Part shown: piece after piece, positions 18,659 to 56,537 of the stretch
Position numbering within the stretch: the stretch's first letter is position 1
How the letters are laid out: each line of letters starts with the position of its first letter
Assembly: GCF_947501165.1 (NCBI RefSeq)
Contig: NZ_CANMUU010000001.1
Coordinates: 806,001 to 870,000, forward strand
Source: an uncultured Allomuricauda sp.
GTDB taxonomy: Bacteria; Bacteroidota; Bacteroidia; Flavobacteriales; Flavobacteriaceae
Reading direction: 5' to 3'
Length of the DNA: 64,000 nucleotides
Program-made: the position numbers and the translations under genes
Notes under the pieces: model-generated
What the model saw: only the letters and a program-made list of their open reading frames with translations
Told to the model about the DNA's origin: nothing
Databases searched by the model: none

Positions 18659-18674
18659 TGTTCCACGTGGAACA
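18659..18674. other. Perfect parS-type palindrome (site 1)
   Basis: TGTTCCACGTGGAACA is a perfect 16-bp palindrome and matches the ParB-binding parS consensus (TGTTNCACGTGAAACA class) apart from one symmetric change. It lies in the gap between the mnmG stop and the lipoprotein gene. An identical copy is at 20556-20571, on the other side of mnmG. Confidence 0.85.
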
Positions 18675-18680
18675 CCTACA

Positions 18681-20549
18681 TTACCTTCCTAAAAAAACCA
18701 ACAACACACTGATGTCAGCTGGGGAAACTCCGCTTATTCTAGAGGCTTGTGAAATACTTACTGGGCGTATTTGCTCTAGTTTTTCCCGCGCTTCGTATGA
18801 TAAGGATTTCAGTTTTGAATAATCGAAAGAATCTGGTATCCTGACATTTTCCAACCTATGCAACTTGTCCGCATTATTCTTTTCTTTTTCAATATATCCT
18901 GAATATTTTACTTGAATTTCAGCCTGCTCTAGGACTTCTCTGCCCAGTTGGTTTTCAGAAACAAAATCAGAAACGGATTCCAATTCAAGCATGTGGTCCA
19001 TGCTAACCTTTGGCCTTGAAAAAACTTTGAATAGCTTATCGGATTGACGAACCAGTGCAGAATCAACGCGCTCTAAAATTGGATTAATTTCCTCCGGGTC
19101 AAAGCTTGTCTTTTTAAAGAAGTGAATGAAGTCATCAGACTTTCTTTGCTTCTCTTCCATCAACTTGAGTCTTTCTTTTGAGGCCAAACCAAGTTCATAT
19201 CCTTTTGGCGTTAGCCTCAAATCTGCATTGTCTTGTCTCAACAAAGTTCGATACTCTGCCCTGGAGGTAAACATCCTGTAGGGTTCTTCAGTGCCTTTAG
19301 TAATCAGATCATCGATCAGCACACCTATATACGCCTCATCTCTTTTTAGTGTAAATGGCTCTTGTTCTCTTATTTTCAGATGCGCATTTATTCCTGCCAT
19401 CAGACCCTGAGAAGCAGCTTCCTCATACCCTGTTGTTCCATTAATTTGCCCTGCAAAATATAGGTTGTCAACGAGCTTGGTTTCAAGTGTGTGTTTTAAC
19501 TGTGTTGGTGGAAAATAATCATATTCAATAGCGTAGCCTGGACGGAAAAACTTTACATTCTCAAATCCCCTTACCGACTTCAGAGCTTTGTATTGAACAT
19601 CTTCAGGCAAGGAAGTGGAGAACCCATTTACATATACCTCTACTGTATTCCATCCTTCAGGTTCCACAAATATCTGATGCGCATTCTTATCCGCAAATCG
19701 ATGTATTTTATCTTCAATGGATGGGCAATATCTGGGTCCAATACTCTTAATTCTTCCATTAAACATTGGCGAACGATCAAAGCCTTCGCGCAGCAGATCA
19801 TGAACCAACTCACTTGTATGCGTCATATGACAATCCCTTTGTTCCTTTAAAACAATGGTGTCCAGATATGAAAACTTTTCGGGTCTACTATCGCCGGGTT
19901 GTGGAATCATCTTTTCATAATCCAAAGACCGGCCATCTACTCTAGGAGGTGTCCCCGTTTTCATTCTTCCTGTGTCGAATCCAAAATCAACAAGCTGCTC
20001 CGTAATTCCCGTGGCAGGCCTTTCTCCAGCCCTTCCTCCACCAAACTGTTTTTCCCCAATATGAATCAACCCATTTAGAAAGGTTCCATTGGTCAACACT
20101 ACAGCCTTAGACCTAATATCAATACCAAGCGATGTCCGAACACCTACAATCGTGTTCCCCTCAACCAAAAGTCCTGAGACCATTTCTTGGTAAAAATCAG
20201 CATTGGGAGTTCCTTCCAAAATCAATCGCCATTCTTCTGCAAAACGCATTCTGTCATTCTGCGCTCTCGGACTCCACATAGCTGGACCTTTGGATTTATT
20301 GAGCATCTTAAACTGTATGGCAGATTTGTCGGTAACAATTCCACTATATCCACCTAACGCGTCTATTTCCCGAACAATTTGTCCCTTCGCAATTCCCCCC
20401 ATTGCAGGATTGCATGACATTTGTCCAATGGTCTGAAGGTTCATAGTGACCAGCAATGTCTTTGATCCCATATTCGCAGCTGCAGCAGTAGCCTCGGCTC
20501 CTGCATGGCCGCCTCCAACCACAATTACATCATATTCCTTTTCAAACAT
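18681..20549 (-). CDS. mnmG: tRNA 5-carboxymethylaminomethyluridine synthesis enzyme MnmG (GidA)
   Basis: A 622-residue FAD protein of normal length. The dinucleotide-binding motif VVGGGHAGAEAT is at residues about 11-22, followed by SCNPAMGGIAKG, the GRAGERPATG segment and GYEEAASQGLMAG, all hallmarks of MnmG. With MnmE it modifies the wobble uridine (U34) of several tRNAs in the cytosol. It is the last gene of a group DUF4175-ybeY-mnmG, 2 nt after ybeY. It is bracketed by two parS-type sites; in many bacteria gidA is close to the origin and parAB. Confidence 0.98.
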   Translation of the reverse strand: MFEKEYDVIVVGGGHAGAEATAAAANMGSKTLLVTMNLQTIGQMSCNPAMGGIAKGQIVREIDALGGYSGIVTDKSAIQFKMLNKSKGPAMWSPRAQNDRMRFAEEWRLILEGTPNADFYQEMVSGLLVEGNTIVGVRTSLGIDIRSKAVVLTNGTFLNGLIHIGEKQFGGGRAGERPATGITEQLVDFGFDTGRMKTGTPPRVDGRSLDYEKMIPQPGDSRPEKFSYLDTIVLKEQRDCHMTHTSELVHDLLREGFDRSPMFNGRIKSIGPRYCPSIEDKIHRFADKNAHQIFVEPEGWNTVEVYVNGFSTSLPEDVQYKALKSVRGFENVKFFRPGYAIEYDYFPPTQLKHTLETKLVDNLYFAGQINGTTGYEEAASQGLMAGINAHLKIREQEPFTLKRDEAYIGVLIDDLITKGTEEPYRMFTSRAEYRTLLRQDNADLRLTPKGYELGLASKERLKLMEEKQRKSDDFIHFFKKTSFDPEEINPILERVDSALVRQSDKLFKVFSRPKVSMDHMLELESVSDFVSENQLGREVLEQAEIQVKYSGYIEKEKNNADKLHRLENVRIPDSFDYSKLKSLSYEAREKLEQIRPVSISQASRISGVSPADISVLLVFLGR

Positions 20550-20551
20550 AA

Positions 20552-20971
20552 CTATTGTTCCACGTGGAACATTTTTATTTTTTCCTCTTCCTTTGCCCTC
20601 ATTAAAACAATCTCTTCCTCAGACTTATCCCCATAACCTGCCAAATGCAGTATCCCATGACTCATGACTCGTAAAAGCTCCTCCTGTTCATCTACCTGAA
20701 AAGTTTTTGAGTTCTCTCTTACCCGGTCCGTAGAAATGAAGATATCTCCTGAAATAACGTTCCCTTCCGTGTAATCAAAGGTGATAATATCGGTATACGT
20801 ATCATGACCCAAATACTGTTGATTGATGGATAATAGTCTATCATCATCACAAAAAATATAGTCCAGCTTACCTACCACCAAACTCTCTTCCGTTATTATT
20901 CTATTAATCCAATCGGAAAACTTTGGAATGTCGTTTAGAATAAAATCTGATTCAAAATGAAAATCAATCAT
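20552..20971 (-). CDS. ybeY: Endoribonuclease YbeY (rRNA maturation)
   Basis: A 139-residue metal-dependent RNase involved in 16S rRNA 3'-end maturation and 70S quality control. The signature HGILHLAGYGD corresponds to HGxLHLxGYDH, but the third zinc-ligand His is Asp, a change that I recall as usual for Bacteroidota YbeY. YLGHDTYTDIITFDY is the other conserved block. Its last codons (MFHVEQ) are encoded by the parS palindrome at 20556-20571. It overlaps the end of the DUF4175 gene by 8 nt and ends 2 nt before mnmG. Confidence 0.95.
   Translation of the reverse strand: MIDFHFESDFILNDIPKFSDWINRIITEESLVVGKLDYIFCDDDRLLSINQQYLGHDTYTDIITFDYTEGNVISGDIFISTDRVRENSKTFQVDEQEELLRVMSHGILHLAGYGDKSEEEIVLMRAKEEEKIKMFHVEQ
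20556..20571. other. Perfect parS-type palindrome (site 2)
   Basis: A second perfect TGTTCCACGTGGAACA, 1897 bp from site 1. It lies inside the last codons of ybeY (encoding FHVEQ on the minus strand), 6 nt before the ybeY stop and 7 nt upstream of mnmG. The coding location shows that the centromere-type sequence is kept within a gene. Confidence 0.85.
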
Positions 20972-37500: not shown

Positions 37501-40500
37501 ATACCGGCTAGTGAATTCCAAGTCCCTAACGACTTTACATTCACAAATGGCGAAGAAGGAGACTATGAATTCATCGTTGTTGATGGGAACAATTGTACAT
37601 TCATTTCCAATGTGGCTACCGTTGTCGTAGCACCCGCAATTGTCTATACAACATCCCAGACCGAAGTTTCATGTTTTGGCGGCAATGATGGGTCCATTGC
37701 TTATAATGTGACAAACACCAACGGGTATACCTTGGATTTCACCTTGACACCAACAGTTGGTGCACCAACGACGAATACCTCTGGCTCATTTACTAACCTT
37801 CCCGCTGGTGATTATACCGTTACGGTTACCCAAACCCAAGGAGGTGTAAGCTGTGACGAAATAGACAATTTTACGATTACCGAACCTGCTGTGGGCATTT
37901 CTGCAAATACGGTCTTAATCCAAGATTTTACCTGTTTACAAGATGGGGTTATTGAAGCTCAAAATATTGCTGGCGGAACAGCTCCATATGAATACAGCAT
38001 AGACGGAATCAACTTCTTTAATGGAGCAGGAGCAGAGCGATTCTCCAACTTAACAGCAGGAACTTATACTATTACGGTTAGGGATGCGAACAACTGTACG
38101 TTCGTAACAAATGCAATCACATTGGACCCTTTAAATCCACCAACGGATTTGACCTTTACTGCTACTACACCTAATTGCCCTGCTTTAACCTCTGATGTCA
38201 CAGTAACTTCTGTGAATGGTGATGCTCCTTTTGTTTTTGAAATTATAGCTCCAGCACCTTTGGCTGCTACTTCCATAACGGGAAATAGCGCAGATTTTGA
38301 TGCTCTTGCTCCAGACACATATACTTTTAGAGTCACGGATGGAAGAGGATGTGTCTATGATGAATCCTTTACCATAAGCCCTGTGTCGCAAATCAGTGTT
38401 ACAGGTCAATTGGTTAGCAACATTAGTTGTTTGACCAGTACGGATGGTGAATTAACTTTTACGGTCTCGGACTTCAATACGGATTTCAACTATTCCATTA
38501 CTGGGCCTTCCAATTTCAATGGAAACAACGAAACCAATGGAACCATTTCCTTATCCAACTTGGATGATGGAACATACGATATTACAGTAACAGATAATTT
38601 AACCAATTGTACTGCCACGGCGAGTGTGACCATAAATGCCCCTTCGGCGGCTTTAACTTTGAGTGCCTCTGAGGTTCAGCCCACATGTACCTCAACAGGA
38701 GGTGTAACCCTTTCCTCAACAGGAGGTTGGGGAGGAAATAGTTTTACACTTACCAATCCTGACGCTACACCTTTTGGAACCAATAGTACCGGTGTTTTCA
38801 ATAACTTAACCCAGACCGGACTTTATACAGCTTCAGTTACTGACGCTAATGGTTGTGTTGTTACAACTAGTTTTACTTTGAATCCTGCAATTGCGCCAGT
38901 CCTGGCTATTGTTCCCAACGATTTTTGCTTTGACAATGCTGTTGGATTGACACTGACGGCTAATATTACCTCAGGTGGAGATGGAAACTATCAGTACAGC
39001 CTTAATGGTGGGGGTTTTGGGACCAACAACGTCTTTTCTGGATTGACCTCAGGAACATATACCATAGAGGTGCGAGATGGAAATAACTGTACCGATACAG
39101 AAACGATTACAATTAATCCTGAGTTAACTGTTGTTGCTTCAGCGCCAAACATAACCGCTTGCGCCACATCCACCAATGTGGATATCACTCCAGCAGGAGG
39201 AGATGGCAATTATGTTTTTGCCATTGTAGGTGATGGTGTGACTCCTACCGGTGGAGACTTTTCTACCACCAACCCTATAAGCGTCACCGGTGTGGGTGAT
39301 TATGATGTATATGTGCGAGATAACGGAGGCGCCTCCGGATTTTGTGAGGCTTCATTCGATTTGAATATTGTACAAGATGCACCATTATCTCTCGCTATTT
39401 CCGATACCGGAATTCTGTGTAGTGGTGAGGCCCAGGCTAATATTAACATTGTTGCATCTGGAGGTGAGGCTCCATTTCAATATAGTATTGACAATGGTAC
39501 TACATACCAAACTTCCAATGTCTTCGTAAATCAGATTGCAGGAAATTATGACATTCGAGTAAGGGATGCGAATAATTGTGAGGTTTCACAAGCCTACAAC
39601 ATTACGGAACCTTTTACCTTATCAGCTTCTGCGGCTGTAACCCAATTGGCAGAATGTAACCCTGGTTTGGGTGCCGAAGTAAGAATCACAAATGCCATTG
39701 GGGGAACTGCTCCTTATGAATATAGTTTTGATGGAGGTACCAACTATGCTGCTAGTCCTATTGGGTTCTTGCTGCCTGGAACTCACACCGTATTTATTCG
39801 AGATGCCAACAACTGTACATTCCCAATGTCAGTAACAGTAGAGCCAGAGCCCACGCCTCCTGGAATTACCCCGTCTATTGTTTACGAATGTGATGGTGAA
39901 GGAACTGTTACACTGACCCCCGATAGTGTTGATTTTGACTACACCTATGAAATTGGAGGAACTCCAAACACACCGGCGACCTCAAATGTTTTCAACAATG
40001 TTCCCGTAGGCACAAATACATTTACCATAAACTACTCTAGCAACATTCCTCCTTCACCTAGCGTGCTTTTGTTAGAGGATTTTGGTGTTGGACCCAATAC
40101 ATCAATTCCCCAGGTAGACACGGCATTTTATTGTTACGAATCACAGGATGCCTCTTTAGGTACTTGTCCAGATGCAAACTTTCAAATTAACGACTTACAG
40201 TATAGCGTTACCAACAATATCGTTGCACCATTCCCCGCGTGGAGAAGTCCAAATGATGCATCTCTCACTCCTAACGGAAGATATTTAGCAGTTAATGTTG
40301 GAAATCCCGGGGTCAACACCGTAGTATATTTCAAAGAGGATATTGAAGTTATCCCAAATAGGGATGTTGTTTTCTCATTGGCCGTTTTCAACCTTGTCCG
40401 ACAAGGCAGAAACCTTATTGAACCGAACATTCTTGTTGAGCTTGTAGACCCTTCTGGGGTTGTAATTTCAAGCGGTACAACAGGTGCAATTCCTGAAAAC

Positions 40501-43500
40501 ACTGGTGCTAATGATTGGCAGAATCTTACCATTCCAGCGCTAAATCCAGGTGCCAACACAACTATTGACATAGTTATTAGAACGATAGCTACCGGCACAA
40601 GTGGTAATGATGTTGCTATTGACGACATCCAAGCCTTCCAACTTCCGGAAGTTTGTGCTGGTTCTTTAACCGTTGATGTGGTTATAGAAGATGGCAATGC
40701 TTTTGATGCAGAAATAACTGCTTTTTCGGATGTAAGTTGTAACGCTGGAAATGATGGTTCCATAACTTTTGAGGTTGAAAACTTTGACCCTGTTAATGGG
40801 TTTGAATATCGTTTAGGAAATACAGGCCCATTTACGGTTTCTACCACAAGCCCAGTTACTATTTCCAATGCCCTTACTGGTGATAATATTATCGCTGGAG
40901 CCTATGACGTTGAAGTAAGGGATGTGCTTGACAATTCTTGTACGGTAACCTTAAATCAAATCATAGATCAACCCGATGCGCTGGTTACAGATGCCTCAGT
41001 GACTACAGCACTGACTTGTACAAACGGAGGTGCCGTAATAACCGCAAGTATTCTTTCTGGTGGAACCCCAGGATTCGAATATCGCCTTGAGGATGCCTCT
41101 ACCTTACCAACTATAACCGTAGTTAGACCCTATCAAGCATCAGATGTCTTTACGGGTGTTCCTGCCGGAAGCTATATTGTTAGGGCAAGGGATGCCAATG
41201 GTTGCGAGGATACTATTGATTCGAGCATAATCGTTGCTCCAACCACACCAATAACGTACACTTTCACTGCCTGTTATGGTGGAAACAATGACGGTACTAT
41301 ACAGATTGATGTTACCGCAGGAAATGGAAATTATGAGTTCAGCCTAAATGGAGGGCCTTGGACAGCCCCGACTCCTTCCAACGCCACGACCTTTACTTTC
41401 AATAATTTGGTCAGTGGAAACTACACCATCAATGTAAGAGATGGTTTGGGTTGTGAAGGCACGTTGGAAAATGTTACCATATACGATGCGCCAACCATAG
41501 ATGTTGTCGACATCAGTACTTGTGCCAACGGTAGCATTACAGTAACCGCTCCTGCTGCACTGACCAACCTTGAATATGCTTTTGTTCCTACTGGAAATAG
41601 TCCTTCAGGATTATTCTCAACCACCAATACCTTTGCTGTAACCACTGGAAACGATGGTGATTATGATGTATACGTAAGGGATACCTCTGCCAGCAATGCA
41701 TACTGTGATTTTGTGGAAACCGTTACGGTAAATCCTGCAACTCCTTTAACTGTTGTAAATACCCCAACAGACCCACAATGTCATAACGGAATGGGTTCCA
41801 TTGAAGTGGACATAACTTCTGGATTGGCTCCTTTCACAATTGATATCGTGGATTTGGACAATGCTGGGGCAGGAAACCAAACGGACACTAATGTTTTGGT
41901 GACTACAAGAACCTATTTCAACTTAATACCTGGTAATTATACTATTAATGTTACCGATGCTACAGGTTGTACGGTTACAGAGACTCCTGTGACCATAAAT
42001 AATCCTGATGAACTAATAGCCGATATTATTCCCATACTGCCTCCTGGCTGTGATCCGGACATTAATTTGACCGGTTTTGAATTTGACAATTATCCTTTAA
42101 CGTTATCCGGAACTCTACAGTTTAGTGCGGATGGTGGTTTAAACTGGCAGACCAGTGATACATTTACTGGAATGGATCCGGTAACTGGAACAATATATTC
42201 TTCAGGTACTGTCATAAATCCTTCTATCAGAACCGTGGACGCATCCAATAATACGCTGTGTCAAATAGATTTACCTCAGTACATCATACCATTTCCACTT
42301 GACGATTTGAACATTACTATCTCAGCGATTATTGTGGATTGTAATGATCTTCAAGTAACTGTACAAGGTACACAAGGGTCACCAAATTACGAGTATACCT
42401 ATTCGGATGACCCCGCCAACTTTGATGAAGCTACTGCAACATGGACCGCTCCTACTCCAGGAAACCATGTGTTCACTGGTCTGGTACCAGGAAGAACCTA
42501 TGTTTTCTATGTAAGGGATTCAAGTCCTTGTGTAAGACAAAGTACGGTGAATGTAAATGATGTGGCGCCTCCGCCTGTTGAAATAACAGCAGATGTAACA
42601 CCAAGTTGTTTTGGGTCCAATAATGGTCAGATTACGTATACTGTTACAGAAGACACTCCAGGTGATTTGGGAGGAACATTTACATGGAACCTATTCGAAC
42701 TTTCCAACCCAACCGTTTCCATTAATTCTGGAACCGAAGTTGGATTCATTTCTGGCGATTCATTTACCGTCCCGGTAGCTCCTTTGGCTGGACTTGCCGC
42801 GGGAACTTATTTTGTTGAGATTCAAGGAGCAGCTCCTAACAACTGTATGGTCGGAAGTGAAAATGTCATCTTGTTGGAGCTTGATCAAATTACGGGAACA
42901 CCATCAGTTCTTCAAAATATTAGCTGTGATTCGCCTGGATTGATTCAAATCCAAAACCCAAGTGGGGGTGGAGGAATCTATACGTATACCTTGTATTATG
43001 ACATTAACAATACTCCTGGTAATCTGGCTGATGATGTGCTTATTACGACGACTACGGATAACCCTATTGAAGTCCCTGCAAACTCTGCAGCTGGAAGCTA
43101 TAGAATAGCTGTTCAAGACCAATATAGTTGTTCCAACGAACTTGGTTTTGTTTCGTTAACCTTAACTCCAGACCCAACTATAGATAGTGTTGTTGTAGAC
43201 AATTGCTCCAACCCTGCCACGGTAACCATCAATGCTACCAGTGCGGCTCCGCAAATTCTGTACTCCATAGATGGGGGAACAACTTTTGTGAATAATGGAG
43301 GTGTTTTCAACAACGTGGCAGCTGGAACATACAATCTTGCTATTCGTGATAGCAATGGATGTTCGGCAATTAGCACCGTAACAGTTCATCCTTTACTACA
43401 GGCGGATGTCCAGCTTACCAAGCTTTTAGACTGTTCTGTTGCTCCAAATACTCCTGATGCACAGATTACAATTGACGTGACCTCTGGTTCCACAAGTTAT

Positions 43501-46500
43501 GATTACGAAATTACAGATGGTACAGGAACAGTAGTAAGCCGAACCAATTTGCCAAGTAATCCTTTTGTTTTTAATACTTCAACGCCCGAAGATTACACCA
43601 TAACCATCTTCGATAACAACACCACTACTCCAGAATGTACAAGGGTATTCAATATTACAGTTCCTCCTATTGTAACCCCGTCTTTCAACATAGTTGCAGC
43701 AACTGATGTTACTTGTTTCGGAAGTGATGACGGTTCTATCACCGTAAATGCGGTAGATACAGGCAATGGTCCTTACGATTTTGAAATTATTTCTGGACCT
43801 GGTAGTTCTGCTACATTTCCAATACCACCAACCAGCAATACTTCTGCTTCTGCAACATTCTCTGGTTTAGAAGGCGCTACGGGCGCTGGAATTACCTATA
43901 CTATTCAAGTAACTGCGCAGGCTACGGGATGCACAACAACGCAAACCCAAGTAATCACACAGCCCGCTCAATTATCCGTGTCTGCAGCCGCAACTCCATT
44001 TACCTGTGCCGCTGGAAACAATGCAGATTTATCAACCATTACGGTTACGGCCACTAATGGAACAGGTCCTTACTTGTACAGTATTGACAATGTCAATTTC
44101 CAAAGCTCAAACACTTTCAATGTTGCTGATACGGGAGCCGTTCAGAATATTACTGTGTTCGTTACCGATGCAAACAATTGTGCTGAAACTGATGCAGTGG
44201 TAATTCAGCCATTGGATATTCTTACTTCTGCCAGTATTAGTATAGACAACGCAGCCACATGTGTTGCGGGAGAAAACATTACTATAACCGCAAATGGTAC
44301 GTTCACCAACTCCTCAACACATCCTGGAAATTATCGGTTTAGATTATTGCCTGGCGGTTCTTTCCAAGCTTCTGGTAGCTTTACTGGATTAAGTGTTGGT
44401 GTTCATAATTTTGAAATAGAAAACACGGTAACCAACTGTATCATCACTACCTCTCATGAGGTATTGACTCCTGAGGTATTACAATTGAATGTTGTAAGTA
44501 CTACTGATATCACTTGTTTTGGAGATACAAATGGTCAAGTGAGCCTTAATCTTCAAGATGCTTCCAATGTCACCTATGCAAGTGCCACAAATTACACGCT
44601 GTATTATGATGTAAACAATACGCCAACAAACTTGGCTGATGACGTGACCTCAACCGGTTCAGATGCTGATGGGGCATTTACTATAACTGGGCTAGCTGCA
44701 GGAACATACTTTATTGAAGTGGTCGATGACAATCCTCCAGGTTCAGCGTGTACATATTCGCAGTCCTTCAATATTGCTGGACCTAATGTTGGTATTTCAG
44801 CTAATACCCAAGTTTCCGAGGTAACCTGTGCCCTTAACGACGGTAGTATTGAAATCATCAATGCTGCTGGTGGATGGGGTGGATACACCTACTTTGTGGG
44901 TACTGTTGCTCCAACCGGTCCAGGCGATTATGTTGCCTCACCATTATTCCAAAATCTAGCAGGTGGAGCAACTCCGGGAACCACATATCAGGTATGGATT
45001 AAAGATCAATTTGATTGTGAGTTTCAGTTACCAAATGTAGTTCTGGTTGACCCAGACCCAATTACGGCAACGCTACAAATCAACACGCCGAACTGTACCA
45101 ATATTGAAGGCGAAATTGAAGTAGTGGGTACGACAGGTGGACAAAATGCAAATTATACCTTCCAATTAAGAAGAAACGGAACCTTAATTGGTTCACCACA
45201 GACCAGCCCAGTATTTACTAGTTTGGGTGCTGGAATATATGTTGTTGAAATAGCAGACCAGTTCTCATGTGCCCATACAACAAACTCAGTAGAACTGTTT
45301 GATGAAATTGTACCTGATGTGACTTTGGACAAACCTATTGACTGTACCCTTGACCCAGGTGGTCATGTGACTGTAAGTCAAACCGGTGGCTCCGGTAACT
45401 TTACTTATGCCGTAACCTTCCCTGACGCATCAACGCCATTACCGACCAACAATACGGGTGTTTTCACGGATTTGACCATGGCTGGAACGTACACATTTAC
45501 CATTACTGACAATGCCACTGGACATGCGTGTGTAAAAACTATTACATTGGATTTGGACGACAGAGTAATCCCCATTATCACCAATGTAGTTGAAGACCCT
45601 GTAAACTGTAACGGAGGTTCAGACGGTTCATTGACGGTTCAGTTGGACCCGGCCACAACGGTTAATCCTGTTTATACCTATGAGCTGTATGAAATGGCAA
45701 ATTTGGTAACGCCGTTTAGGTTTGCCCAAACCAGCAACGTATTTGATAATTTACCTGCAGGGGATTATCGCGTAAGGGTTATTTCAGGCAGGTCTTGTGA
45801 TGCATTTTTTGACCAAACCGTTACAGAGCCAAATGCTTTAAACGTAAGCGCATTGGCAAGTGCATTTGCATGCAGTCCGTCCAATACCGTAAATACGGCA
45901 ACCATAACCATTACCGCAACAGATGGAACTGGTCCTTACCTGTACAGTATTGATAATGTAAACTTCCAGACTTCAAATACCTTCGACATTGTAGATACTG
46001 GAGTAATTCAGAACATCACGGTCTTTGTGAGGGATGCCAACAACTGTTTGGAAACGGATGCCGTTTCTGTTAATCCTATCAACGTGTTCACCGCAGCAGT
46101 TTCGCAAAACATTGCCATTAGTTGTGCCAATCCTGAAGAAGTATTGCTTACGGTTACTGATAATGGTGTTCCAACCAATAGCTATACCTATACACTGCTA
46201 CCTTTAGGAAATACGTTAGGCACACTCACGTCCACGCCTACGAACACAACCGGGGTATTTGAATTGACAGCCCCTGGAAGCTATACGTTTAGGGTAACCG
46301 ATACGTCTACAAATTGTTATGTGGATACTGCCCCGTATGAAATAGCCCCATTCGATTTAATTGATGTTGTGGCCACACCTACAGCACCTGTTACATGTTT
46401 TGGGAACGCAGACGGTGCAGCTGAAATCAACATCACAGGGTATTCCGGTACTTTTGATTTTGAAGTATTCAATGCAGATGGAACTACTACTGGAATCACG

Positions 46501-48894
46501 GGCTCGGGCAATACGGCTACAAGTCCGATGCCCATACCTAATCTACCTGGAGGAAACTTTTTTATTCGAATAACACAAACGGCCAACCCATTGTGTGCCG
46601 AAGATTCCAACGTATTTACCATTGTTTCTCCTAGTGCTCTTTTAGACGCAAGTCCTGTTGAGGTGGCCAATGTTACCTGTGCCAACAACCTTGGAGAAAT
46701 TGAGGTTTCCCCAACTGGTGGCTATGCTCCATATGATGTTGTGTTGACCAACACCACAACAACTCAGGTATATACCGCTACAGATGTTACAAGCATTGTA
46801 TTTAGTGGTCTCTCAGAAGGAACCTTTGATGTAGAAATAACGGATAATAACGGTTGTGTGATTAACAGACCTGTACAGTTAACCCAACCTATACCGATTA
46901 CCGCAGATATTACCGCAACACCAACCACTCTAGTTTGTTATGGAGATACCAACGCAACGGTATCCGCAATAAACGTGGTCAACGGTAGAGGGGTATACCT
47001 GTATCAGTTGAACATTTATGATGCAACTGGAACTACCATAGTTTCTTCGTCTGGCACTCAGTCAAGTGCAGATTTCAACAACCGTGGTGCTGGAATATAT
47101 AGCATCACCGTTTCTGATGGTTGGAGCTGTGATGTAGAAACCATTCAAGTAACCATTTCAGAACCTGCCGAAGTAATGGCCAACCTAATTCAATTAACAC
47201 AGCTTACCTGTACAAATCCAGCTGAGTTGGAGTTAACGGCTACCGGTGGTACGGGTCCTTATGAGTTTAGTTTGGATAATGTTGTATTCTCCCCAATGAC
47301 TGGGGCTGGAGGTGACACACACGTATTCACTGTTCCAGATGGTGCATATCAATATTACGTAAGGGATGCTTTTGGTTGTGAGGCGATGATTTCCAACCAA
47401 ATCACCGTTGACCCAATAACACCATTGGATGTTCTCATAGACGATAGTGCCGCATTCATCAATTGTACTGGTGAAGCTTCTGCAACTATAATAGCTGATG
47501 CTATTGGTGGGCTTGGAAATTATTCTTATGAGTTGTTCTCAGACCCCGGACTAACCAGTTCAGTGGCTGGCCCACAAACCGATGGTGAATTCAACGGACT
47601 ATTGGCTGGAACATATTATGTGCACGTAACCAGTATGGACTGTGAAGTGACAAGTGGTGTAATTCAAATAGATGATCCTGCCCCATTGCAGATAGACAGA
47701 CAAGAATCAACAGATGTTACGTGTTCTGGTCTTGAAGACGGTACAATCACAGTTGAAGTGTCCGGTGGAACGGGTGAAATATTTTACGCAATTACACCTA
47801 ATCTAAACCAGTTTGATACGGTCAATACATTTACAGATTTGGCACCTGGTGTTTATGATGTCATTGCCCAAGATAGAAACGGATGTTTTGAAACCTTCCA
47901 GTTTACAATTAATCAGCCCGATCCTATTGCCGCAGATGCTATAAACGTAATGCACGAGGTATGCTTCGAGAGCGCTGATGGTTCCTTTGAATTAGATATC
48001 ACCGGAGGAACGGCTCCATACTTTACCAGTTTGAATTCCAATGCTGATGCTGATTTTGTTCAGGACCAAATCTTGTTCCAGAATTTGTCTGCAGGAACCA
48101 ACGTTGTTTTTGTACGTGATTCTCAGGGTTGTGAGACCAATGTCTTTGTGGAAATCAACCCAGGAGTAAACCTTGAAGCAACCGTAACACCAATATACTC
48201 ATGTGATGGAATAATCCCGGATAACAGCTTAGGCATTGTGTTCACCGATTCTACTGTAAGTACAGATGTTTTGTATGCCTTGGATTCCACAGATCCTTTG
48301 GATATGCAATTGACGGCCGATTTTACCAATATTCCTCCCGGAGACCATTACTTGACCATAGCACACTCCAATGGATGTATAAATACCGTAGACTTTACCA
48401 TAGAAGCATTTGAGCCGTTGACCTTGGTATTGGAAAACAGTAACATAAATGAAATCACAGCTACAGCAACCGGAGGTCTAGAAGATTATACCTTCTTCTT
48501 TGGTGATATTGACAATGGAACTGACAATACATTCATAATTAATAGAACAGACACATACCCGGTAACCGTTATAGATAACAACGGTTGCTCGGTAACCATG
48601 GAAATTTTTATGGAGTTCATTGATATTGAGATTCCTAACTTCTTTACCCCAGATGGTGATAATCTCAATGATACATGGATTCCAGATAATTTAGAAGCCT
48701 TTCCAAATGTACTAATGGTCATTTTTGATCGTTATGGTAGAGAGCTCCATCGTATGGGTTATGGCGACCCTGGATGGACTGGTATTTATAATAACAGCGA
48801 GCTCCCTACTGGTGACTACTGGTATATCATTAAGCTGCAAGGTGAAAGTGATAACCGGGAATTTATTGGACATTTTACCCTATATCGACAATGA
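34597..48894 (+). CDS. sprB: Giant SprB-like cell-surface gliding adhesin (4765 residues)
   Basis: A single frame of 14.3 kb. In order: signal peptide (MSNHILKTLICLFGIGLLG...SAQ, residues 1-25); an N-terminal beta domain to about 375 with WAGLYWSAN; a DUF11-type domain at about 377-500 (LDYVLSFVNTGNDDATNY); then tens of SprB-type repeats of 70-100 residues with a CxGxxDGSI-like start, GGxxPYxYS core and DxNxC end; a distinct jelly-roll-like insert at about 1822-2020; and a T9SS type B sorting domain at about 4675-4765 (PNFFTPDGDNLNDTWIPD). SprB moves along the cell surface, driven by the gliding motor. F. johnsoniae SprB is larger (about 6500 residues). Placement between PorP/SprF-family genes supports the call. 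Confidence 0.88.
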   Translation: MSNHILKTLICLFGIGLLGLKTSAQVEVPFTPRLDNSFINIKGDYTFLSNSIINRVDGSNTANDPFNGNSNNNGFHRDYIDIDSDPTTFSSSSSTLTLPFCSRIYWAGLYWSANYQQEVLNNTQIPTLPQNDTQRLDFTQIKFRVPGSTTYMDLQADNNPDPVGEEDAIIYDNVNFKDSPYTCFKNVTNILQGLADPAGEYFVGNVRATRGRSVGGAGGWTLVIIYENPTLNGRYISVFDGYAGVSGSSSADINVSGFNTIPVGPVRARLGASVVEGDRSISGDAFRIQTPLNPGFTSLSNAGNPANNFFNSNITIDGADVTTRNISATNTLGFDSDIFEINNPANSIIANTETDATLRLFTQGDAFGAFLVTFGVEIIEPNIVLEKRVEDIGGNDITGLGVNLGQVLDYVLSFVNTGNDDATNYVIRDVLPTNVTLDEASLTLPTGVTYVYDEPNREITFTIPDNLVEEGDPISSIRMRVQVAQNCFDFVDACTDVIQNQAFSTYEGVINDNQISDDPSVSDFDDCGFTTPGATNFLLDDLNACNFSRTVELCGNSVTLDAGDNFDAYVWYRDENGNNSIDAGDTVLNDGDPDGDPSTLTVTDIGTYIVDKQVADPCKDFAEIIVVERVGATQTNPITTLINDTSNTVEGEIVICPNDGSELPEIFLCGLNDTELVQINIPDAVSIEWELLDESSCSAATSGCANTNNSCTWNVVETGSDFTASDAGQYRLVINYQNGCFSRFYFNIFKNPLDPQVNTRDIICSTNGNITVTNMPLDYEYRLIDQSTGNVIVGYNPSPSFDIATNGAYTVEMRQQGVVDGCVFVLDNIGILDRDFQVDVTTKDTDCNGLGEISISVLNVEPQYYYEISQGGITVDTFGPSTDNNYTFENLNDGIYDVLVTTDDVCNYTEQVTINDVTDLDVTAVTTKNIDCTDGIITVTGSGGFPNPDYVYAIWSRDGVDLYTSVNDIPASEFQVPNDFTFTNGEEGDYEFIVVDGNNCTFISNVATVVVAPAIVYTTSQTEVSCFGGNDGSIAYNVTNTNGYTLDFTLTPTVGAPTTNTSGSFTNLPAGDYTVTVTQTQGGVSCDEIDNFTITEPAVGISANTVLIQDFTCLQDGVIEAQNIAGGTAPYEYSIDGINFFNGAGAERFSNLTAGTYTITVRDANNCTFVTNAITLDPLNPPTDLTFTATTPNCPALTSDVTVTSVNGDAPFVFEIIAPAPLAATSITGNSADFDALAPDTYTFRVTDGRGCVYDESFTISPVSQISVTGQLVSNISCLTSTDGELTFTVSDFNTDFNYSITGPSNFNGNNETNGTISLSNLDDGTYDITVTDNLTNCTATASVTINAPSAALTLSASEVQPTCTSTGGVTLSSTGGWGGNSFTLTNPDATPFGTNSTGVFNNLTQTGLYTASVTDANGCVVTTSFTLNPAIAPVLAIVPNDFCFDNAVGLTLTANITSGGDGNYQYSLNGGGFGTNNVFSGLTSGTYTIEVRDGNNCTDTETITINPELTVVASAPNITACATSTNVDITPAGGDGNYVFAIVGDGVTPTGGDFSTTNPISVTGVGDYDVYVRDNGGASGFCEASFDLNIVQDAPLSLAISDTGILCSGEAQANINIVASGGEAPFQYSIDNGTTYQTSNVFVNQIAGNYDIRVRDANNCEVSQAYNITEPFTLSASAAVTQLAECNPGLGAEVRITNAIGGTAPYEYSFDGGTNYAASPIGFLLPGTHTVFIRDANNCTFPMSVTVEPEPTPPGITPSIVYECDGEGTVTLTPDSVDFDYTYEIGGTPNTPATSNVFNNVPVGTNTFTINYSSNIPPSPSVLLLEDFGVGPNTSIPQVDTAFYCYESQDASLGTCPDANFQINDLQYSVTNNIVAPFPAWRSPNDASLTPNGRYLAVNVGNPGVNTVVYFKEDIEVIPNRDVVFSLAVFNLVRQGRNLIEPNILVELVDPSGVVISSGTTGAIPENTGANDWQNLTIPALNPGANTTIDIVIRTIATGTSGNDVAIDDIQAFQLPEVCAGSLTVDVVIEDGNAFDAEITAFSDVSCNAGNDGSITFEVENFDPVNGFEYRLGNTGPFTVSTTSPVTISNALTGDNIIAGAYDVEVRDVLDNSCTVTLNQIIDQPDALVTDASVTTALTCTNGGAVITASILSGGTPGFEYRLEDASTLPTITVVRPYQASDVFTGVPAGSYIVRARDANGCEDTIDSSIIVAPTTPITYTFTACYGGNNDGTIQIDVTAGNGNYEFSLNGGPWTAPTPSNATTFTFNNLVSGNYTINVRDGLGCEGTLENVTIYDAPTIDVVDISTCANGSITVTAPAALTNLEYAFVPTGNSPSGLFSTTNTFAVTTGNDGDYDVYVRDTSASNAYCDFVETVTVNPATPLTVVNTPTDPQCHNGMGSIEVDITSGLAPFTIDIVDLDNAGAGNQTDTNVLVTTRTYFNLIPGNYTINVTDATGCTVTETPVTINNPDELIADIIPILPPGCDPDINLTGFEFDNYPLTLSGTLQFSADGGLNWQTSDTFTGMDPVTGTIYSSGTVINPSIRTVDASNNTLCQIDLPQYIIPFPLDDLNITISAIIVDCNDLQVTVQGTQGSPNYEYTYSDDPANFDEATATWTAPTPGNHVFTGLVPGRTYVFYVRDSSPCVRQSTVNVNDVAPPPVEITADVTPSCFGSNNGQITYTVTEDTPGDLGGTFTWNLFELSNPTVSINSGTEVGFISGDSFTVPVAPLAGLAAGTYFVEIQGAAPNNCMVGSENVILLELDQITGTPSVLQNISCDSPGLIQIQNPSGGGGIYTYTLYYDINNTPGNLADDVLITTTTDNPIEVPANSAAGSYRIAVQDQYSCSNELGFVSLTLTPDPTIDSVVVDNCSNPATVTINATSAAPQILYSIDGGTTFVNNGGVFNNVAAGTYNLAIRDSNGCSAISTVTVHPLLQADVQLTKLLDCSVAPNTPDAQITIDVTSGSTSYDYEITDGTGTVVSRTNLPSNPFVFNTSTPEDYTITIFDNNTTTPECTRVFNITVPPIVTPSFNIVAATDVTCFGSDDGSITVNAVDTGNGPYDFEIISGPGSSATFPIPPTSNTSASATFSGLEGATGAGITYTIQVTAQATGCTTTQTQVITQPAQLSVSAAATPFTCAAGNNADLSTITVTATNGTGPYLYSIDNVNFQSSNTFNVADTGAVQNITVFVTDANNCAETDAVVIQPLDILTSASISIDNAATCVAGENITITANGTFTNSSTHPGNYRFRLLPGGSFQASGSFTGLSVGVHNFEIENTVTNCIITTSHEVLTPEVLQLNVVSTTDITCFGDTNGQVSLNLQDASNVTYASATNYTLYYDVNNTPTNLADDVTSTGSDADGAFTITGLAAGTYFIEVVDDNPPGSACTYSQSFNIAGPNVGISANTQVSEVTCALNDGSIEIINAAGGWGGYTYFVGTVAPTGPGDYVASPLFQNLAGGATPGTTYQVWIKDQFDCEFQLPNVVLVDPDPITATLQINTPNCTNIEGEIEVVGTTGGQNANYTFQLRRNGTLIGSPQTSPVFTSLGAGIYVVEIADQFSCAHTTNSVELFDEIVPDVTLDKPIDCTLDPGGHVTVSQTGGSGNFTYAVTFPDASTPLPTNNTGVFTDLTMAGTYTFTITDNATGHACVKTITLDLDDRVIPIITNVVEDPVNCNGGSDGSLTVQLDPATTVNPVYTYELYEMANLVTPFRFAQTSNVFDNLPAGDYRVRVISGRSCDAFFDQTVTEPNALNVSALASAFACSPSNTVNTATITITATDGTGPYLYSIDNVNFQTSNTFDIVDTGVIQNITVFVRDANNCLETDAVSVNPINVFTAAVSQNIAISCANPEEVLLTVTDNGVPTNSYTYTLLPLGNTLGTLTSTPTNTTGVFELTAPGSYTFRVTDTSTNCYVDTAPYEIAPFDLIDVVATPTAPVTCFGNADGAAEINITGYSGTFDFEVFNADGTTTGITGSGNTATSPMPIPNLPGGNFFIRITQTANPLCAEDSNVFTIVSPSALLDASPVEVANVTCANNLGEIEVSPTGGYAPYDVVLTNTTTTQVYTATDVTSIVFSGLSEGTFDVEITDNNGCVINRPVQLTQPIPITADITATPTTLVCYGDTNATVSAINVVNGRGVYLYQLNIYDATGTTIVSSSGTQSSADFNNRGAGIYSITVSDGWSCDVETIQVTISEPAEVMANLIQLTQLTCTNPAELELTATGGTGPYEFSLDNVVFSPMTGAGGDTHVFTVPDGAYQYYVRDAFGCEAMISNQITVDPITPLDVLIDDSAAFINCTGEASATIIADAIGGLGNYSYELFSDPGLTSSVAGPQTDGEFNGLLAGTYYVHVTSMDCEVTSGVIQIDDPAPLQIDRQESTDVTCSGLEDGTITVEVSGGTGEIFYAITPNLNQFDTVNTFTDLAPGVYDVIAQDRNGCFETFQFTINQPDPIAADAINVMHEVCFESADGSFELDITGGTAPYFTSLNSNADADFVQDQILFQNLSAGTNVVFVRDSQGCETNVFVEINPGVNLEATVTPIYSCDGIIPDNSLGIVFTDSTVSTDVLYALDSTDPLDMQLTADFTNIPPGDHYLTIAHSNGCINTVDFTIEAFEPLTLVLENSNINEITATATGGLEDYTFFFGDIDNGTDNTFIINRTDTYPVTVIDNNGCSVTMEIFMEFIDIEIPNFFTPDGDNLNDTWIPDNLEAFPNVLMVIFDRYGRELHRMGYGDPGWTGIYNNSELPTGDYWYIIKLQGESDNREFIGHFTLYRQ

Positions 48895-51951: not shown

Positions 51952-54135
51952 CTATTCTCTTTTTCCAAGAAGAGAAAAATCTAAATGTCTTTTAACTAAA
52001 TCAGTATCCTTAACCATTACCCAAACTTCATCTCCTAATTGATACATTTTTTTTCGCCTTTCACCTACAATGGCATACTGGCGCTCATCAAAAATATAAT
52101 AGTCGTCCTTAATATCTCGAATCCGCACCATTCCTTCACATTTATTCTCTATAATTTCTACATAAATTCCCCATTCCGTAACCCCTGAAATTACACCCAA
52201 AAACTCTTGGTCTTTGTGATTTTCCATAAAACGTATTTGCATATACTTTATGGAATCTCGTTCTGCACTGGCAGCCAATATTTCCATATCTGAAGAGTGT
52301 TTACACTTTTCTTCATAAATCTCGGCCTTTGGTTGCTTCTCCTTATCCAAATAACTTTGAAGAAGCCTATGTACCATTACATCTGGATAGCGTCGGATTG
52401 GTGATGTAAAATGGGTATAATATTCAAAACCTAAACCATAGTGACCTATATTTTCAGTAGTGTAAATCGCTTTGCTCATACTTCGAATGGTCAACGTATC
52501 CACTAAATTTTGTTCTTTTTTCCCTCTTACATCTTTTAAAAGTTGATTTAGAGAACTGTTCAGGCTCTTTTTGTCCTTAAGATTGATGCTATGACCAAAT
52601 CTTGAAATCACTCCATTTAGAGCCAATAACTTTTCTTCGTCCGGTTCATCATGAATTCTATATACAAAGGTCTTTTTCTGCTTTCCAATAAATTCAGCTA
52701 CCTTTCTATTGGCCAACAGCATAAATTCCTCAATAAGCTTATTGGCATCTTTAGATTCTTTAAAATAAACCCCATCCGGCTCATTATCCTTAGTCAGGTT
52801 GAAACGAACTTCTATTTTATCAAACGAAATGGCACCTTCGTCCATGCGCTGTTTTCTCATGATTTTTGCCAAATCGTCAAAAGTCAAGATGGCATCAACT
52901 ACATCACCATCAACTGAATACGAATCTTTTCTAATGGAAATGTCTTTTGGAATGGTACCTGATTTGCTTTCAATAATATGTTGTGCTTCTTCGTATGCAA
53001 AACGTTCGTTGGAATTAATGACCGTTCTCCCGAACCACTGATTGATTAAGTTGGCCTTATCGTCCATTTCAAAAACAGCAGAAAACGTATACTTTTCCTC
53101 ATTGGGTCTAAGCGAACATGCCCTGTTGGATAAAATCTCTGGCAACATCGGAACCACTCTGTCAACCAAATATACAGAGGTGGCCCGTTCATAGGCCTCA
53201 TCATCTAAAACGGTATTTGGCTCCAAATAATGGGATACATCGGCAATATGGATTCCTATTTCAAAGTTTCCATTCTGTAATTTTTGAAAAGAGAGTGCAT
53301 CATCAAAGTCTTTTGCATCTTTCGGATCAATGGTGAAGGTCAATACCTCTCGCATATCTCTCCGTTTTGCAATTTCCTCTTCCTTAATGGAAGTATCCAG
53401 TTTGTTGGCATATTGTTCTACTTCGTACGGAAATTCATAAGGCAATCCATACTCCGCTAGAATGGCGTGAATCTCGGTTTGATGTTCTCCAGGCTTTCCT
53501 AAAACTTCCATTACTACTCCAAAAGGAGAATCTGCATCTTCAGGCCAATTTTCAAGATTCACCAATACCTTATCTCCATGTTCCGCCTTTTTCAGTTTAT
53601 CAATGGGAATAAAAATATCCGTGTACATTTTCGGGTCCGTAGGACGTACAAAAGCAAAGGTTTTTTGTTTGTCAACTATACCCACATAGCTACTCTTCTT
53701 TCGTTCCAAGACTTTGGAAATCTCTCCTTCAGGTTTCTTTCCATTACGTTTTGGTTTTAGAAAAACTTCTACAACATCTCCATGAAATGCTTTGTTCAGC
53801 CTATTGAAGGGGACAAAGATGTCCTGCTCCATATCTTCTACAATTACATAGGCGTTGCCACTACTGGTCACATCAATTTTTCCAGTAAAACATGTATTCA
53901 AACTAGGTTTTTTCTGGAACTTGCCACGCTCTACCTCAACTATTCTTTCACTGGCGCGCAGTTGCCCCAAACGTTTAATCAAATCGTTACGATCTCGAGT
54001 TTCTTCAATACCTAGTTTGGATGCTATTTGTTTATAGTTGAAACTTTTGGAAGGTTCTTTTTCTAAAATTGTAAAAATACCTTTGGTTATTTCATTCTTC
54101 CTCTGGCTTCTCGCTCTTTTCTTTTTTTTCGACAT
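51952..54135 (-). CDS. rnr: Ribonuclease R
   Basis: A 727-residue 3'-5' exoribonuclease. Order: N-terminal winged-helix/OB part with cold-shock folds (GKIDVTSSGNAYVIVEDMEQDIFVP), catalytic RNB domain with TIDPKDAKDFDDALSF carrying the metal-binding aspartates, and a C-terminal S1 domain (GVISGVTEWGIYVEIIENKCEG). The N-terminus is strongly basic (SKKKKRARSQRKNEIT). It degrades structured RNA in the cytosol. Its start faces the AT-rich candidate origin. Confidence 0.97.
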   Translation of the reverse strand: MSKKKKRARSQRKNEITKGIFTILEKEPSKSFNYKQIASKLGIEETRDRNDLIKRLGQLRASERIVEVERGKFQKKPSLNTCFTGKIDVTSSGNAYVIVEDMEQDIFVPFNRLNKAFHGDVVEVFLKPKRNGKKPEGEISKVLERKKSSYVGIVDKQKTFAFVRPTDPKMYTDIFIPIDKLKKAEHGDKVLVNLENWPEDADSPFGVVMEVLGKPGEHQTEIHAILAEYGLPYEFPYEVEQYANKLDTSIKEEEIAKRRDMREVLTFTIDPKDAKDFDDALSFQKLQNGNFEIGIHIADVSHYLEPNTVLDDEAYERATSVYLVDRVVPMLPEILSNRACSLRPNEEKYTFSAVFEMDDKANLINQWFGRTVINSNERFAYEEAQHIIESKSGTIPKDISIRKDSYSVDGDVVDAILTFDDLAKIMRKQRMDEGAISFDKIEVRFNLTKDNEPDGVYFKESKDANKLIEEFMLLANRKVAEFIGKQKKTFVYRIHDEPDEEKLLALNGVISRFGHSINLKDKKSLNSSLNQLLKDVRGKKEQNLVDTLTIRSMSKAIYTTENIGHYGLGFEYYTHFTSPIRRYPDVMVHRLLQSYLDKEKQPKAEIYEEKCKHSSDMEILAASAERDSIKYMQIRFMENHKDQEFLGVISGVTEWGIYVEIIENKCEGMVRIRDIKDDYYIFDERQYAIVGERRKKMYQLGDEVWVMVKDTDLVKRHLDFSLLGKRE

Positions 54136-54729
54136 TAACCATCTTATTTTGTGAAAAATACGAATTATAATCTTTTACGGATGTTCCGTATACTAGGTAG
54201 AACAAAAACAACATCTTTTATTAACATGAAATAGTATTATATTTTCTTTCTTTCTTTAAAAATTAAAAAAATGTTGGTTATGATAGTATGTTAAAATGTG
54301 GAATATGTATTTTAAAGAAAGCTTGCTTTCAACAGATGAATATTTTTATCCACAATCTTTCCAAGGGTAATAAAATTTAAAATCAATGAGTTAGGTTTTT
54401 TCTTCACGACTATTAATAAAATATATCAACATTGATTTATTGAAAATTAAAAATTGATTTAATGTTAATTACTCCATGTTTTGTATTGAAATATGTTGAT
54501 TAAATATTAATGGAATATTACCAAAAGTTTACGAAGGTTTTCGTAATGGAAATAAATCAAGTAAAAACAAAATTTAATTTCTTGTAGTTTTCTTCAAAAG
54601 ATCAACAAATAGATGATTATTGAAAAGACTTGTTTATGAGGTGATTACAAATAGTGAAAAAGTTTTATCAACATCGTGCATAGAAAAGAATTGTACCTTT
54701 GATTTTAGTACCATTAAACTAAACATGTC
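54136..54729. other. AT-rich intergenic region with DnaA-box-like sites: candidate oriC
   Basis: A 594-nt gap between divergent rnr and rpiB, the longest in the window and visibly its most AT-rich stretch. A perfect DnaA box TTATCCACA is at 54346-54354. Close relatives are TTATCAACA (54665-54673), ATATCAACA (54423-54431), TAATCAACA on the minus strand (54494-54502) and AGATCAACA (54599-54607). No open frame is evident. The layout of an AT-rich element with several boxes is that of a bacterial replication origin. dnaA is not adjacent. The rpiB promoter lies at its right end. Confidence 0.6.
54694..54701 (+). promoter_or_regulatory. Bacteroidota -7 promoter element for rpiB
   Basis: TACCTTTG matches TAnnTTTG exactly, 28 nt before the rpiB ATG at 54730 and directly after the last DnaA-box-like site. 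Confidence 0.55.
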
Positions 54730-55161
54730 ATGAAAATCGCTATAGGAAATGACCATGCCGGAACGGAATACAAACTCGCCATTGTAGGTCTTTTAAAATC
54801 AAAAGATATTGAGGTTGTAAACTATGGAACAGACGGAACAGACAGTGTAGATTATCCTGATTTTACACATCCTGTGGCTAAGGATGTTGAAAATGGGGAA
54901 GTAGATATGGGTATTGTTATATGTGGTTCAGGAAATGGTGCCAGCATGACTATTAACAAACATCAGGGAATTCGAGGGGCGTTATGTTGGAACAAAGAGA
55001 TAGTAGCTTTAGCTAGAGAGCACAATGATGCTAACATATTGAGTCTTCCGGCACGTTTTATTGCATTACCACAAGCTTTGGAAATGGTAGAAACGTTTCT
55101 GAACACGAAATTTGAAGGTGGGAGGCATGAACGCCGAATAGAAAAAATGCCCTGCGTCTAA
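54730..55161 (+). CDS. rpiB: Ribose 5-phosphate isomerase B
   Basis: A 143-residue RpiB/LacA/LacB-family enzyme that interconverts ribose 5-phosphate and ribulose 5-phosphate in the pentose phosphate pathway. The N-terminal GNDHAGTEYK, the active-site Cys in VICGSGNGASMTINK and GIRGALCWN are characteristic. Length is normal. It is the first gene of a plus-strand run (rpiB, CDF transporter, ElaA-like GNAT). Confidence 0.95.
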   Translation: MKIAIGNDHAGTEYKLAIVGLLKSKDIEVVNYGTDGTDSVDYPDFTHPVAKDVENGEVDMGIVICGSGNGASMTINKHQGIRGALCWNKEIVALAREHNDANILSLPARFIALPQALEMVETFLNTKFEGGRHERRIEKMPCV

Positions 55162-56094: not shown

Positions 56095-56537
56095 TGGAAA
56101 TCCACATAAAAACCTTTGAAGAATTGAGCAAGGCAGAACTCTACGCCATTTTGGCCTTACGGTGCGAAGTCTTTGTAGTGGAACAAGAGTGCGCCTATCA
56201 AGATTTGGACTATAAAGACCAAAAAGCCATTCATATACTAGGAAAAAAAGACAATAAAGTAGTGGCCTATACACGAATATTTAAGCCTGGCGATTATTTT
56301 GAAAATACCAGCATTGGACGAGTGGTGGTTGCCCAAAACGCTCGGCAATACGGCTATGGAAAGGACATTATGGAAGCCTCTTTAAAGGAAATAGAAGAGA
56401 ACTTTCCAAACGGAGCTATTGAACTCTCTGCCCAGACCTATTTAACGAAGTTTTATAGAGATTTGGGTTTTATGGAACAAGGCGAAAGCTATCTCGAAGA
56501 TAATATACCACATGTGAGGATGGTGAAAAAAGAATAA
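56094..56537 (+). CDS. ElaA-like GNAT N-acetyltransferase
   Basis: A 147-residue GNAT protein of the ElaA type: ALRCEVFVVEQECAYQDLD, GRVVVAQNARQYGYGKDIM (acetyl-CoA-binding loop Q/RxxGxG) and the ending LEDNIPHVRMVKKE. The substrate is unknown. It shares one base with the stop codon of the CDF gene (TAATG), so they are translationally coupled. A 15-codon remnant resembling its C-terminus lies at 57144-57188. Confidence 0.9.
   Translation: MEIHIKTFEELSKAELYAILALRCEVFVVEQECAYQDLDYKDQKAIHILGKKDNKVVAYTRIFKPGDYFENTSIGRVVVAQNARQYGYGKDIMEASLKEIEENFPNGAIELSAQTYLTKFYRDLGFMEQGESYLEDNIPHVRMVKKE

Follow-up and report, generated by a model that had tools for sequence, protein, structure and literature searches.

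The 594-bp intergenic gap between the divergent genes rnr and rpiB (54136..54729) is very probably the DnaA-dependent chromosomal replication origin, oriC, of this genome, as judged from boxes, AT content, the changepoint of skew at third codon positions (GC3) and conservation in both the genus and the family. The gap lies in a stretch of 64,000 nucleotides, hereafter the window (G000:C1:806001-870000), from a 3.73-Mb assembly of 13 contigs. Among named loci, those of Allomuricauda and Flagellimonas are nearest, and the window probably belongs to that genus. The initial annotation had put the gap forward as a candidate replication origin, and this proposal is supported by the skew turn in sampled stretches of the genome, by the skew of its relatives, and by the conservation of gap length, DnaA boxes and parS linkage.

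The rnr–rpiB gap and its DnaA boxes

The left neighbour of the gap, rnr (51952..54135, minus strand), encodes ribonuclease R with RNB, cold-shock and S1 domains, and the right neighbour is rpiB (54730..55161, plus strand), a name taken over from the first reading; the two genes are indeed divergent, as initially described. Likewise, in our own gene set the gap is both the longest of the window (594 bp; runners-up of 568 and 517 bp) and the most AT-rich (0.768, or 76.8%; second gap, 0.692), in agreement with the earlier description. The richest 594-bp stretch elsewhere in the same window reaches an AT content of 0.702, compared with 0.768 in the gap.

Counting as a DnaA box any 9-mer with at most one mismatch to TTATC[CA]ACA, we found five boxes in the gap, whereas 0.89 are expected from 1000 dinucleotide shuffles (p 0.001). 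Box 1 (54218..54226, plus strand) reads TTATTAACA here and TTATCAACA in most relatives, and is the best-conserved 9-mer of the gap in a 78-row alignment. Box 2 (54346..54354, plus strand) is an exact TTATCCACA here and TTGTTCACA in most of the genus, box 3 (54423..54431, plus strand) is ATATCAACA here and TTATCAACA in many members of the genus, box 4 (54494..54502, minus strand) is the reversed TAATCAACA, also identified by box scan and alignment, and box 5 (54665..54673, plus strand) is an exact TTATCAACA found by box scan. Four of the boxes listed in the initial annotation (54346, 54423, 54494 on the minus strand and 54665) are thus recovered, and a fifth, at 54599..54607 on the plus strand, drops out, as its sequence AGATCAACA has two mismatches; it is a weak box whose position is nevertheless conserved. 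The earlier list was also incomplete, having overlooked the best-conserved box at 54218. The density of boxes was assessed in a 444-kb sample comprising the window and a further nineteen 20-kb stretches, all from one contig (C1). Six 600-bp windows in this sample contain five or six boxes, and all six overlap the gap, with at most four boxes per 600 bp elsewhere; the extra box of the top 600-bp window is TTAGCCACA at 54873, within rpiB.

A lone TTATCCACA has little meaning in this genome, because exact copies occur three times in the window and 12 times in the 444 kb. TTATCAACA is rare elsewhere in the genome, with seven copies in the 444 kb. In 77 dereplicated gaps of relatives, the mean number of boxes per gap is 4.61 versus 0.78 in shuffles; TTATCAACA is present in 53 of these gaps, where 1.0 would be expected, and TTATCCACA in 6 of the 77. 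Moreover, 61 of the 70 copies of TTATCAACA in these gaps point one way. The characteristic box of the predicted rnr–rpiB origin is TTATCAACA, not the perfect TTATCCACA.

Directly adjoining box 1 is a T-rich and AT-rich tract (54227..54277, up to 0.88 AT), which we propose as the putative DNA unwinding element. It is followed by the conserved TTATGATAG (54278..54286, plus strand), in place of which alignments of much of the genus display a ATGATGATGAT-like tract; this tract does not match what we take to be the DnaA-trio. Near the other end of the gap, TACCTTTG (54694..54701, plus strand), part of the conserved block GTACCTTTG, is likely the -7 element of the rpiB promoter, on the assumption that TAnnTTTG is the -7 element of Bacteroidota. 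A AATTATAAT block at 54163-54171, which adjoins the start of rnr and is among the best-conserved blocks of the gap, may be the rnr promoter.

The arrangement is widespread. A match to rpiB was found in 35 out of 39 genomes searched, and a divergent rnr–rpiB pair with a gap is present in 122 of 139 loci, a count that includes the window's own locus and in which some genomes probably appear twice, under a handle and a name. Of these 122 gaps, 97 span 450-760 bp and 25 are longer, up to 2879 bp; the box statistics given above leave out the 25 gaps longer than 760 bp and dereplicate the remaining 97 to 77, and the 78-row alignment consists of these 77 and a duplicate row for the gap of the window. 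The 17 loci without the divergent pair comprise five cut by a contig end, eight from other families of the order, for which 1.5 kb upstream of rpiB was covered, and four (L176, L183, L186 and L199) in which no rnr was found within the 3.5-4 kb covered. In G025 and G027, members of other families, the place of rnr beside rpiB is occupied by phosphoglycerate kinase, and a MORN-repeat protein occupies it in G026 and G036; a gap next to rpiB is retained in two further families. Within the genus, gap length is 584-596 bp in 20 of 22 loci, the exceptions being L033, cut by a contig end, and L031, read with a chance ORF inside the gap. The alignment of same-genus gaps (21 rows, L033 being left out of the 22 loci) has a mean column identity of 78%.

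Skew switch in this genome and in closed relatives

Raw GC skew was followed over 23 blocks, taken from the window and the 19 sampled 20-kb stretches of C1. It is negative in 12 of the 13 blocks to the left of the gap and positive in one, and to the right it is positive in six of ten blocks and negative in four. The best single changepoint separates the two blocks that adjoin at the gap (Mann–Whitney p 0.0011, permutation p 0.0012). Since gene direction flips at the gap too, GC3 skew was fitted with direction as a covariate, using 322 ORFs of at least 150 aa, a 450-base limit for which rpiB is too short to be scored. GC3 skew switches best between two neighbouring scored ORFs, rnr (centre 53045) and the gene that follows rpiB (centre 55633), with a log-likelihood gain of 66.1; the maximum gain in 300 permutations, in which every fourth position was scanned, is 27.5. 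Because a 14.3-kb ORF dominates its stretch, the fits were repeated without ORFs longer than 3 kb, which left the changepoint unchanged, with gains of 61.8 and, unweighted, 52.9. At the runner-up positions 56240 and 52314, at least one ORF step off, the fit is worse by 1.4 and 3.4 log units, so that the switch is resolved to a few kb; the printed changepoint of 54339 is a mere midpoint of the flanking ORF centres (53045 and 55633) and adds no finer evidence for the gap. Within this span of a few kb, it is the boxes, the AT content and the conservation that single out the gap. In the sense of the plus strand, GC3 skew is -0.09 on the left and +0.06 to +0.07 on the right, and this holds for either gene direction; about one-third of the ORFs are plus-strand genes both left and right of the gap. 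Within the window, GC3 skew is negative in each of the 12 scored ORFs from mnmG to the gap (centres from 22675 to 53045) and zero or positive in each of the eight scored ORFs beyond the gap on the right, in either direction. On the positive side, L093 and L105 have a slightly negative lean. The initial annotation had predicted a skew turn at about 54.4 kb and named a turn elsewhere as refuting the proposal; in the sampled stretches the turn does lie here, at a resolution of a few kb.

Sampled skew of 11 closed relatives, with a resolution of 0.1 of the circle, agrees with an origin at rpiB in all three same-genus genomes (20 stretches each) and in six of eight others, namely seven of the same family and G025 of another family, with ten near-even stretches each; two of these 80 stretches, the first of G161 and the seventh of G144, were shifted to fit inside the contig. 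In the three same-genus genomes, a free two-breakpoint GC3 fit places the origin at rpiB in each case, and a raw-skew fit with an antipodal terminus places it within ~40 kb of rpiB. Among the eight other genomes, the best GC3 rotation is at rpiB in six, with G153 and G161 displaced by 0.1 and 0.2 of the circle, and the expected GC3 sign is found in 35 of 40 stretches on the right arm and in 36 of 40 on the left, the other 5 and 4 going the wrong way. Raw skew gives a best rotation at rpiB in five of the eight, the other three being off by 0.1 of the circle, and the expected sign in 30 of 40 right-arm and 35 of 40 left-arm stretches. In G025, the representative of another family, sampled skew also turns at rpiB. 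In the sampled stretches of the 11 closed genomes, 791 of 1559 ORFs (51%) are co-directional with the replication fork, implying almost no leading-strand gene bias, though the third-codon skew is clear.

parS sites, dnaA and alternative placements

Two exact copies of the parS palindrome TGTTCCACGTGGAACA bracket mnmG/gidA (18681..20549, minus strand), a gene named in connection with oriC in two published Flavobacteriaceae genomes. One site (18659..18674) is located just past the 3' end of mnmG and the other (20556..20571) just before its start, inside the 3' end of ybeY. The genome has no further exact copy of TGTTCCACGTGGAACA; a similar site with two mismatches is found on another contig. The gap begins 35.5 and 33.6 kb beyond the ends of the two parS sites, which bears out the distance of 34-36 kb given in the initial annotation. 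The linkage was followed in 34 closed genomes, which are related and so not independent; they comprise 29 members of the family, three of the genus and two from other families. The parS pattern differed slightly between the two groups in which they were searched. A site of the searched forms was found in 29 of the 34, always 6-55 kb from rpiB and on its upstream side in 27 of the 29; parS of the searched form is absent in 5 of the 29 closed family genomes. The comparison leaves out G038 (300 kb, no rpiB match) and G034, a closed genome of another family that has 79 bp upstream of rpiB, no parS match and dnaA at 0.06 of the circle from rpiB. In this genome the two parS sites closely bracket mnmG, and a spacing of ~1.9 kb recurs in many relatives. 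The single ParB-type gene of this genome is on contig C2, not beside parS. The window also contains an ORF of 4765 aa at 34597-48894, and three closed relatives likewise have ORFs of 10-13 kb in the interval from rpiB to parS.

The parS sites bear on the most serious alternative, that replication starts at mnmG, between or beside the two sites (~18.6-20.6 kb of the window), and that the rnr–rpiB gap is a bystander. Apart from parS itself, this placement has the backing of published work: in their accessible portions, the papers on Mariniflexile litorale (PMC11278836) and Algorimicrobium (PMC12843772) name mnmG as oriC or its neighbour on the basis of Ori-Finder 2022, and claim a fit to their own GC skew, although one of the two puts mnmG at oriC in the text and at ter in a figure legend. 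An offset of tens of kb would probably be invisible on published GC-skew plots, and Ori-Finder, as far as its accessible description goes, uses indicator genes and TTATCCACA as the default box, both of which may draw predictions off an origin built of TTATCAACA. In this genome, the GC3 gain at mnmG, between the parS sites, is 13.4 versus 66.1 at the gap (without ORFs longer than 3 kb, 33.5 versus 61.8, and 33.5 versus 52.9 when unweighted), and the 12 scored ORFs from mnmG to the gap all keep the negative sign of the left arm. Furthermore, the segment that separates rpiB from parS was scored in three closed relatives, and its skew follows the arm in which parS lies (+0.25 to +0.28), also when ORFs longer than 3 kb are removed (+0.05 to +0.13, with only 3-6 ORFs each); were replication to start at parS, the sign would be reversed. 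The intergenic gaps beside mnmG are, moreover, just 36 and 2 bases long. We thus regard an origin at mnmG as very unlikely.

It is highly improbable that the gap merely provides an extended promoter region for both rnr and rpiB, or harbours an unannotated RNA. Promoter-like conserved blocks do lie at both of its ends, but boxes and conserved blocks also occupy its middle, Rfam matches are far below the gathering score (best E 0.22; 24.9 versus 65.2 bits), and such a reading leaves the skew turn and the parS linkage unexplained. Sites of the datA or DARS type, which titrate or recharge DnaA, carry DnaA boxes too, and the cluster could in principle be such a site near a separate origin; this is barely credible, given that no other 600-bp window in the 444 kb has more than four boxes and that skew turns at the gap itself.

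An origin beside dnaA is the general rule in bacteria, and several of the closed assemblies are numbered from dnaA, but this placement has next to no chance here and is already contradicted by the sampled skew of relatives: no box with at most one mismatch is found in the ~350 bases covered upstream of dnaA, and in the three closed same-genus genomes dnaA is 0.58, 0.59 and 0.63 of the circle from rpiB, with the opposite skew turn at ~0.41-0.57. In this genome, dnaA is a single-copy gene (E 7.9e-27) on contig C2, confirming that it is not adjacent to the gap. Across the 34 closed genomes, the distance between dnaA and rpiB is 0.20-0.48 of the circle, with a median of ~0.36, and exceeds 0.25 in 32 of the 34, that is, dnaA is in the half of the chromosome opposite rpiB; the lengths of 22 of these genomes are known to 0.1 Mb, and both bounds were tried.

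Domain IV of the encoded DnaA aligns with the solved chain 1j1v (E 1.7e-19). The recognition motif is DHATVLHAC, in contrast to DHTTVLHAC in 1j1v, and 8btg also has DHTTV; we take 1j1v and 8btg to be from E. coli and B. subtilis, respectively. The substituted site has a role in base contact. The substitution might account for the preference for TTATCAACA over TTATCCACA, which is a lead only. A second, weaker match to DnaA domain IV was observed in G153, G158 and G137, in ORFs of 186, 134 and 142 aa, respectively, the last of them below the cut-off; these ORFs perhaps encode a short DnaA-like protein.

Proposed initiation, implications and comparison with known origins

Boxes, AT-rich tract, conservation, skew turn and parS linkage are directly seen, and from them we infer DnaA binding, melting, initiation and segregation, as well as the role of each box. 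DnaA produced from the distant gene would bind the mostly same-facing boxes of the TTATCAACA type, and its assembly would melt the T/A-rich tract adjoining box 1. The helicase would then be loaded and two forks would depart in opposite directions, one via rnr toward mnmG and parS and the other via rpiB. ParB bound to the two parS sites 34-36 kb away may separate the new origins. It is possible, though on present data doubtful, that Flavobacteriaceae as a whole combine a fixed rnr–rpiB origin, family-specific TTATCAACA boxes, a DnaA with DHATVLHAC and a dnaA gene held in the terminus half. If dnaA is so held, the initiator gene would be doubled late in each round of replication, and its dosage would therefore track fork progress and not initiation, a control layout opposite to that of usual models.

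Three features are of interest: a site fixed across the family, the variant box and the position of dnaA. The rnr–rpiB gap would give many members of a large bacterial family an origin that is precisely placed and open to test. It also suggests that assemblies numbered from dnaA and origins labelled by mnmG are misplaced, the former by a fifth to half of the circle and the latter, provided that mnmG is a marker of parS as in this genome, by 6-55 kb. A correct origin is needed for growth-rate estimates from read coverage and for studies of gene dosage, and the family may offer a natural case for the effects of a dnaA gene far from oriC.

Like oriC of the E. coli and B. subtilis type, the predicted origin combines a cluster of 9-mer boxes, an AT-rich tract, an intergenic site and a GC-skew switch, and parS is near the origin, as it presumably is in many bacteria with parABS. 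It differs in that dnaA is distant, the main box is TTATCAACA and not TTATCCACA, and the flanking genes are rnr and rpiB. Neither rnr–rpiB as oriC nor a preference for TTATCAACA nor dnaA in the half opposite oriC was found in the literature searched, a scope that excludes subscription papers and DoriC itself; DoriC may well hold the rnr–rpiB site for some species.

The accessible portions of the following reports allow a closer comparison. The mollicute DnaA motif TT(T/A)TCAACA (PMC3322544) is the same box variant as the dominant box of the rnr–rpiB gap, but the lineage is unrelated and its authors doubt that phytoplasmas are covered; the same variant is also one box of a cyanobacterial origin. 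No DnaA boxes were found in Blattabacterium, which is without dnaA (PMC2768785). That oriC of Bacteroidetes is commonly distant from dnaA is already published, in the report on Prevotella intermedia OMA14, which cites DoriC (PMC4755523). The oriC of that strain was likewise predicted at the skew turn, with DnaA boxes and far from dnaA; unlike here, neither the neighbouring genes nor a conserved neighbour pair or a family-wide box is stated in the portion available. In Elizabethkingia meningoseptica, another genus, Ori-Finder predicted a 649-bp oriC with three boxes, scored against TTATCCACA with one mismatch, and dnaA is ~1.87 Mb away by map coordinates (PMC8994065); the portion available again names no neighbours of that region. 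Neighbour genes of a Flavobacteriaceae origin are not given in the available portions of PMC13342612 and PMC8359277. Finally, M. litorale and Algorimicrobium belong to the same family as the genome studied here, and their published origins probably refer to this part of the chromosome, given that in our window the parS sites 34-36 kb from the gap sit at mnmG; those reports name mnmG, whereas the evidence presented here favours the rnr–rpiB gap.
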